64,000 nucleotides of DNA from Dehalococcoidia bacterium (GTDB lineage: Bacteria; Chloroflexota; Dehalococcoidia; Lucifugimonadales; SHYT01): the NCBI GenBank assembly GCA_009692665.1, contig SHYT01000003.1, forward strand, positions 62,001 to 126,000. Reading direction: 5' to 3'. Made by a program: the position numbers and the translations under genes. The first letter of the stretch is position 1, and each line of letters begins with the position of its first letter. Positions 31,254 to 33,323 of the stretch are shown piece by piece. The notes beneath the pieces were generated by a model. That model made no database searches. It was not told the origin of the DNA and saw only the letters and a list, made by a program, of their open reading frames with translations.

Positions 31254-31902
31254 GTGTCACCCTGGAACTATTTCGTCCAGGAGTTCGCCCATGCCGCCTC
31301 CCGTGGGACAGCCTCCAAAAGCCTTCGGAGCACGTCACACCGTCTTGCACAACCACCGCATCTCTCTAATGAAGACGTTCCGTGTCCCTTCCTGCGTACC
31401 CACGCGCGCTACAGCGGCCAGCAAGGCGGCGGTGCGGGCGTCATCGTGCACCAAGAGGGGCTGATAGTGACGAACGGGCGCGTGGTGCCGGCCCGCGTGC
31501 TGGCCATTGAGCGCGAACGTGATCTGGCGGCGCTGACCGTTGACGTCCACGGCCTGACGTCCATCGAGCTTGGGCGACTCAAAGGCGTTGCAGCTTGGGC
31601 AGTACGTCATCGCCATGGGCCATCCGTGGGGCATGACGAACGCAGCCACGGCGGGTGTTGTGGTTGGAGCTGCGGCGCATCCGGGGATTCCGCGCATGGG
31701 GCGTGATTGGGTGGTGGTGAATCTCCACCTGCGCCCCGGTTACTCCGGCGGCCCGCTGTTTGACGACCGCGGCAGGCTCATTGGCATCAACACAATGATG
31801 GCCGTTCACGACGTGGGCATGGTAGTGCCGGTGCACGCAGCCAAGCGGTTCCTGCGGGACACCCTCGCCGTCACGGCAGATGAGTCTGCCGTGACGGTCT
31901 GA
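31254..31902 (+). pseudogene. Trypsin-like (HtrA-type) serine protease remnant: deletion over catalytic His region plus frameshift
   Basis: Frame 1 GGGAGVIVHQEGLIVTN|GRVVPARVLAIERERDLAALTV...SIEL; frame 2 from ~31570 LGDSKALQLGQYVIAMGHPWG...PGYSGGPLFDDRGRLIGIN. Confidence 0.8.
31868..31897. repeat. Perfect 13-bp-stem inverted repeat at the end of the protease remnant
   Basis: CCGTCACGGCAGA-TGAG-TCTGCCGTGACGG. Confidence 0.9.
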
Positions 31903-32498: not shown

Positions 32499-33323
32499 CT
32501 ACTCGATGCGCGCGATGCGGTACCGCAGTGTGCCGCGCGGGCTGGAAACGGAGACTTCTTCGCCTGTACCCTTATCGATGAGTGCGCGGCCCAGCGGGGA
32601 TGCGATGGAGATTTTCCCCTCGTGAGGGCTGACCTCTTGCGGATCGACCAGCAGGTACGTCACTTCTTTGCCGGACACGACTTCCTGCAACATTACTCGG
32701 CAGCCGTGGTAGACCTTAGAACGTGCAGTCTGGTGCTCGCCACTCAGCACCTCGGCACCTTCGAGCGTGGCCTCAATCTGCCGGAGCTGTCCCATAAGGT
32801 GTCCCTGCTGCTGGCGCGCGGCTTCTAGAGGGAAGTTCTCCCGGAAGTCTTTGTCGGCGGCCGCCTTTTTGATATCCTCAGAGTTCTTGATGAGGTCTTC
32901 TTTGAGCTGTACCAGCTTGGCCTGGAGGCTGGCATGGCCCTCAACGGTGAGCTGCGCGGGTTCCCTGGGCCGCCTCTTGGAGGCGTCGGAAGCCTTGCCA
33001 ACCCGGCGCGCCTTTACGTGCGACGCCAGGCCCACAGGCAGCGCTGCCTGTTCAACGATATATGTGAAGAACTCCTTCAGCACCTTGACTCGCTTGGATG
33101 CCGTCTCCATGCTGGTAGATATGGTGCTGGAGTACGCTTCAATATCTCGCGGTGTGAGTTGGGCAAGCTGATACTGACGCCCAAAATGCCGCAGAAGGCT
33201 ACTCAGTTCTTGTTGCGTCGCGGCGTCGACTTTAGAGAGGCTCTGAAGGTAGAGGGTAGCCGCTGCTTCTAAAGTAGACGGGGTAAACTGGGTGCTCACG
33301 AACGTCTCCGGCCTGTTAACCAT
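32499..33323 (-). CDS. greA: GreA/GreB-type transcript cleavage factor with N-terminal integrase SAM-like (core-binding) domain
   Basis: N-term TLEAAATLYLQSLSKVDAATQQELSSLLRHFG...LTPRDIEAYSSTI...KRVKVLKEFFTYIVEQ; C-term coiled coil + ...LVDPQEVSPHEGKISIASPLGRALIDKGTGEEVSVSSPRG. Confidence 0.85.
   Translation of the reverse strand: MVNRPETFVSTQFTPSTLEAAATLYLQSLSKVDAATQQELSSLLRHFGRQYQLAQLTPRDIEAYSSTISTSMETASKRVKVLKEFFTYIVEQAALPVGLASHVKARRVGKASDASKRRPREPAQLTVEGHASLQAKLVQLKEDLIKNSEDIKKAAADKDFRENFPLEAARQQQGHLMGQLRQIEATLEGAEVLSGEHQTARSKVYHGCRVMLQEVVSGKEVTYLLVDPQEVSPHEGKISIASPLGRALIDKGTGEEVSVSSPRGTLRYRIARIE

Follow-up and report, generated by a model that had tools for sequence, protein, structure and literature searches.

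Gre factors such as GreA, which rescues stalled RNA polymerase (RNAP), are small, freely diffusing proteins of the secondary channel of that enzyme, and they dock on the beta-prime rim of the enzyme with the coiled coil inserted and the globular domain left outside. Gfh1 does not stimulate cleavage but acts as an inhibitor of transcription. At the catalytic centre of RNAP, Mg2+ interacts with residues D41 and E44 of E. coli GreA (PMC7527559). Gre parts also occur in larger proteins: the GreA/B-C conflict systems combine TPR, GreA/B-C and PIN domains with variable effector domains (PMC8195603), and NCBIfam holds the models PRK06330 (718 aa, 'transcript cleavage factor/unknown domain fusion protein') and PRK14720 (906 aa).

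The gene considered here lies in a window of 64,000 nucleotides (the whole stretch of DNA that was analysed) and encodes GreA preceded by a domain of the kind that tyrosine recombinases use for core binding. The protein has the coiled coil, the tip acid pair and the FKBP-like C-terminal domain in common with GreA/GreB (PF03449 and PF01272; TIGR01462), to which it adds an N-terminal recombinase-type domain of about 110 residues. With the XerC/XerD-type core-binding domain (PF02899, PF13495) this additional domain shares the helical fold and two basic positions in the last long helix, but it lacks T18, Y22 and R68, is not followed by a catalytic domain and is joined to a transcription factor instead. 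PRK06330 and PRK14720 likewise carry GreA at the C-terminus; the match to them covers the Gre part only, so that their N-terminal parts are unrelated to ours at the sensitivity of NCBIfam. The conflict proteins resemble the fusion in having a Gre C-terminal domain, within a fused protein, that is thought to engage RNAP (PMC8195603), whereas the fusion possesses a full GreA with its coiled coil, bears no effector and is near-universal in its class. The literature searched, from which most subscription journals were missing, yielded neither a description of a recombinase-domain/GreA architecture nor experimental work on the fusion; domain databases may list the architecture.

Architecture of the fused gene

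The features of the gene are collected in Table 1. The open reading frame runs on the minus strand from an ATG at 33323 to a stop codon at 32501–32499. In the AlphaFold model the N-terminal domain consists of helices 18–28, 34–47, 58–65 and 72–93, and K/R residues are kept at positions 104, 106 and 107, directly ahead of a linker whose residues 111–116 are disordered in the model (pLDDT <50). The two helices of the GreA coiled coil (127–156 and 164–189) enclose a tip in which D159 and E162 are the alignment equivalents of E. coli GreA D41 and E44, and the C-terminal FKBP-like domain should attach to the rim helices of the RNAP beta-prime subunit.

Table 1. Coordinates of the fused gene and its parts within the window
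Feature	Residues	Position	Strand	Evidence
Whole gene (core-binding domain and GreA)	274 aa	32499..33323	-	ORF, translation, fusion conserved in relatives
Integrase core-binding (SAM-like) domain	14-112	32988..33284	-	hhalign, AlphaFold/Foldseek, profile matches
Flexible linker	108-123	32955..33002	-	Model confidence
GreA coiled-coil domain, GreA_GreB_N	124-192	32748..32954	-	Pfam PF03449, E 4.7e-12
Coiled-coil tip DKDFRENFPL	157-166	32826..32855	-	Alignment to E. coli GreA
GreA C-terminal FKBP-like domain	202-274	32502..32720	-	Pfam PF01272, E 1.3e-19

Both GreA domains pass the Pfam cut-offs, and Pfam together with the structural model and its Foldseek matches places a full GreA at residues 124–274. 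Against the NCBIfam greA model TIGR01462 the fusion scores 108.9 bits, below the curated cut-off of 139, which is a naming threshold for typical members and not a functional feature. Pfam found no Phage_integrase domain, the carrier of the R-H-R-Y catalytic residues, in the fusion, and all the remainder of the protein is GreA. A sequence-only reading of the window had described precisely this arrangement, an integrase-like core-binding fold with no catalytic domain followed by a GreA coiled coil and an FKBP-like domain, and it proved right on each of these points, the bounds of the first domain now being refined to about residues 14–112. Judged by its domains and tip residues, the protein is a Gre factor and not a recombinase, and we regard its identity and its two-part architecture as practically certain.

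Homology and translation of the N-terminal domain

Searches with the single sequence returned sub-threshold matches only: Phage_int_SAM_4 in Pfam (E 0.035 with the first 131 residues, 0.18 with the whole protein) and XerD in NCBIfam (E 0.025, first 131 residues). These were not accepted as proof of an integrase N-terminus, since matches of this level are not decisive, and a profile search of the PDB by sequence was similarly weak, its top match being the integrase domain 2kd1 (E 0.05). The comparison of profiles gave a clear result. When 62 aligned N-terminal regions were compared by hhalign with 28 Xer SAM-like domains from relatives, the score was 40.8 (probability 94%, E 1.5e-7), while 100 column-shuffled Xer profiles reached at most 16.5 and the reversed profile 9.8. 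AlphaFold2, run on 63 fusion proteins, produced a model with a mean pLDDT of 88.6 and four N-terminal helices; its pTM of 0.46 means that the mutual placement of the domains is not fixed. With the whole model, Foldseek retrieved GreA and Gfh1 through the Gre part and then integrase core-binding domains (2kob, the Tn1549 integrase, 3nrw and the lambda integrase), and with the N-terminal model alone (pLDDT 76) the first 26 matches were all integrase or Cre-type recombinase domains. The TM-score against 3nrw was 0.75/0.71, the Foldseek E-values being modest (0.014 and up). Finally, in whole-genome searches with the N-terminal profile the fusion ranked first, and where a genome gave a second match, all ten of those scanned were tyrosine recombinases with a Phage_integrase domain; in the source genome the profile retrieved the fusion only. 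The agreement of these three lines of evidence (hhalign, AlphaFold/Foldseek and whole-genome profile searches) settles the question of integrase homology, and the descent of the N-terminus from a tyrosine-recombinase core-binding domain, without the catalytic domain, is well supported.

It might be argued that translation omits the N-terminal frame, or that the gene is a chimaera of one metagenome bin. The frame is open, and both frame and sequence are conserved, along with the fold, over hundreds of genomes and species, including single-contig genomes, which supports the translation of the N-terminal part. The one observation that could be turned in favour of an artefact comes from D. mccartyi CBDB1, where GreA (cbdbA743) bears an acetylation at K17 that is stronger in stationary phase (PMC7918482). 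Residue 17 of the full-length Dehalococcoides-like relatives is N or S, and it is K only when numbering begins at an internal Met that leaves about 150 aa. The acetylation was thus discarded as proof of N-terminal translation, and it suggests that the CBDB1 annotation probably starts downstream of the domain, which we count as a choice of annotation rather than as evidence against the fusion. We consider an artefact of either kind extremely improbable. In the Dehalococcoides-like genomes of loci L150, L153 and L156 the fusion is the only Gre, and some GreA annotations may begin past the N-terminal domain and in this way hide it.

Genomic context

The neighbours of the gene in the window are ordinary: a luciferase-like oxidoreductase, a PNPOx-like protein and tsaD. 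Around the fusions of 18 relatives the neighbouring proteins fell into 83 families, none of them represented by more than three proteins, and the virus search found no viral relatives of the fusion. The idea of a mobile or phage-borne gene in the source genome was dropped on these grounds, and the earlier impression of a resident gene among ordinary genes holds. Elsewhere in the window, at 31254–31902 on the plus strand, a Trypsin-like peptidase (Trypsin_2, PF13365) is split across two frames; the usual position of its catalytic His is apparently occupied by R ('VTNGRVV') while the serine motif 'GYSGGPL' is kept, and the locus is either a pseudogene or the product of a frameshift error.

Distribution and origin of the fusion

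Within the order of the source genome, 139 of 147 genomes match the fusion protein, most of them across both parts. In a phylum sample of 400 genomes the full-length fusion was present in 8/8 members of this order and in 44/46 of the rest of the class, hence in 52/54 for the class, and outside the class in about 39 of 346 genomes from some 20 families. The N-terminal profile alone detected 256 of the 294 genomes of the class, and 168 of the 181 good ones, counts that include a few recombinase matches. There are also divergent fusions (G373, L169), in which the profile matches the Gre part alone, and two genomes of the same class (G354 and G323, 95% complete) gave no GreA_GreB protein in the family search. 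The nearest named relative, Baikal-deep-G107, contains two full-length copies of the fusion (L033, L034) and a stand-alone GreA. A scan of GTDB genomes yielded 480 relatives; beyond Chloroflexota our coverage consists of this single pattern-based scan, and the best 80 of the 480 loci belong to Chloroflexota, the group being Dehalococcoidia, Dehalococcoidales or SAR202 wherever one is given, and to one unassigned record, Bacterium HR23.

When 73 Gre domains were placed in a tree, a single branch (SH-aLRT 89) set the 48 that come from fusions apart from the others, and the fusion trait requires one change, compared with a mean of 20.9 after shuffling. Multiple fusion events were therefore rejected as the tree requires one change only. 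The single clade looks like the trace of one ancient fusion event followed by vertical inheritance. The tree was built by a quick method with SH-aLRT support only and is unrooted, and because the root was not inferred this reading of the sequences is consistent with the data rather than proven by them.

The fusion as a Gre factor of its lineage

The source genome has a second, stand-alone GreA of 157 aa (C9:124832–125302), as counted by six-frame searches in an assembly estimated to be 91% complete. In all 82 fusions the tip pair equivalent to D41/E44 is D/E, whereas in the stand-alone GreA paralogues of the order, namely the copy of the source genome and those of 29 relatives, it is G/D (30/30). 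Their tip reads GG(T/N)xDN and the first acid is missing in each of the 30 examined, which, being one inherited group, do not represent 30 independent events. The stand-alone GreA of the order is thus a possible non-cleaving Gre paralogue. Stand-alone GreA proteins of Chloroflexota genomes without a detected fusion have acidic residues at both tip positions in 20/20 cases (D/E in 11, E/E in 8 and D/D in 1), these 20 loci being picked from the best-scoring rows of the phylum sample.

A stand-alone GreA was present in 62 of 117 genomes of the order, about half being without one. Several groups have complete or near-complete genomes whose only GreA_GreB protein is the fusion; these genomes include the Dehalococcoides-like G153, G166 and G194 as well as G176, G185, G251, G331, G440, G085 and G141. 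The retention of the D/E tip, the G/D pair of the paralogues and the frequent status of the fusion as sole Gre together point to a cleavage-competent factor. The fusion would usually be the only GreA, or the only catalytically intact one, of its Chloroflexota carriers, and we consider it likely to be the main, cleavage-competent Gre of the lineage.

Since conflict systems are known in which a Gre-type C-terminal domain is joined to effector domains (PMC8195603), we also considered a non-cleaving, Gfh1-like inhibitor of RNAP or a conflict-system effector. The fusion has the fold of Gfh1, which is among its Foldseek matches, and differs from it by keeping the GreA-type D/E pair, which speaks against an inhibitor of that type, and the pair is canonical in every fusion aligned. 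Moreover, effector domain and conserved conflict neighbours are both missing, and the single clade and near-universal presence in the class are unlike those of conflict genes. Such a role is, in our opinion, very unlikely.

Possible role of the N-terminal domain

The residues of the N-terminal domain give a mixed picture. In the alignment, Xer K69 and R74 fall at positions 78 and 83, which both stay basic, the frequency of K/R in fusions being 93% at residue 78, 98% at 83, 100% at 104 and 97% at 107. The Xer-invariant T18, Y22 and R68 are lost, and the mean net charge of the helical core (residues 14–95) is +0.4 in fusions versus +3.1 in Xer, most of the positive charge of the fusion N-terminus residing in the tail, outside this core. 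Such losses and a core charge close to zero would be compatible with the disappearance of DNA binding, and the domain may have lost that activity. The same features would suit a protein–protein module that contacts RNAP or some other factor of transcription or replication, or that restrains Gre through autoinhibition, and so would the strong conservation of F43, W46, G48, Y64, F85 and L99, although most of these hydrophobic or aromatic consensus positions could simply form the core of the fold. Against a domain devoid of DNA binding stand the K/R residues kept at four positions and the descent of the domain from a DNA-binding fold; we therefore treat a pure protein module as a possibility to be taken seriously but held in some doubt. 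That the domain is a nucleic-acid tether rather than a protein contact is suggested by its basic residues and its ancestry, with a chance that we put just short of even. The proposal of the sequence-only reading that the domain could bring Gre to DNA is plausible.

Residue P5 of E. coli GreA is close to I75 and F88 and falls between the coiled coil and the globular domain (PMC7527559), and a domain joined to the GreA N-terminus, at the base of the coiled coil beside the globular domain, would accordingly find itself outside the channel. In the mechanism we propose, the C-terminal domain would dock on the beta-prime rim of RNAP, the coiled coil would enter the secondary channel and D159/E162 would help to position Mg2+ for the cleavage of backtracked RNA, while the recombinase-type domain would remain outside the secondary channel on its short flexible linker. 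Its conserved basic residues would then most probably touch nearby nucleic acid, be it extruded RNA or the duplex DNA of the elongation complex, or else the RNAP surface, and the domain would keep Gre close to paused or backtracked polymerases. We give even chances to this reading of the fusion as a working Gre factor with an added nucleic-acid or RNAP tether outside the secondary channel.

A more specific role, in which the domain would guide Gre to particular DNA sites and make it a locus-selective anti-pausing factor, could be proposed from the fold match, as core-binding domains of tyrosine recombinases contribute to DNA site recognition. Isolated core-binding domains usually bind weakly, however, and the Xer-invariant residues are lost; in addition, many genomes have no Gre other than the fusion, which implies that it must act genome-wide and counts against site-specific targeting. 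We find such targeting improbable.

Returning to the tethered Gre factor, its history might be reconstructed as the capture of a recombinase domain once and early in much of Chloroflexota, giving a DNA-tethered cleavage Gre, after which the stand-alone GreA lost its tip or vanished. We offer this scenario tentatively, as less likely than not.

Biological significance

Across much of a phylum the working Gre has been replaced by a form that bears a recombinase-derived domain. This offers an instance in nature, open to experiment, of a secondary-channel factor that may be tethered, and it shows how a recombinase domain was domesticated for a task in core transcription. Since the fusion is usually the only Gre, or the only intact one, of its carriers, the core transcription machinery may have acquired a means of tethering or targeting. 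The finding concerns the Dehalococcoidia, including SAR202-type bacteria, and in Dehalococcoides-like genomes the fusion is apparently the sole Gre. If the DNA-tether reading is true, these bacteria would possess a class of Gre factors that couples secondary-channel rescue to DNA binding.
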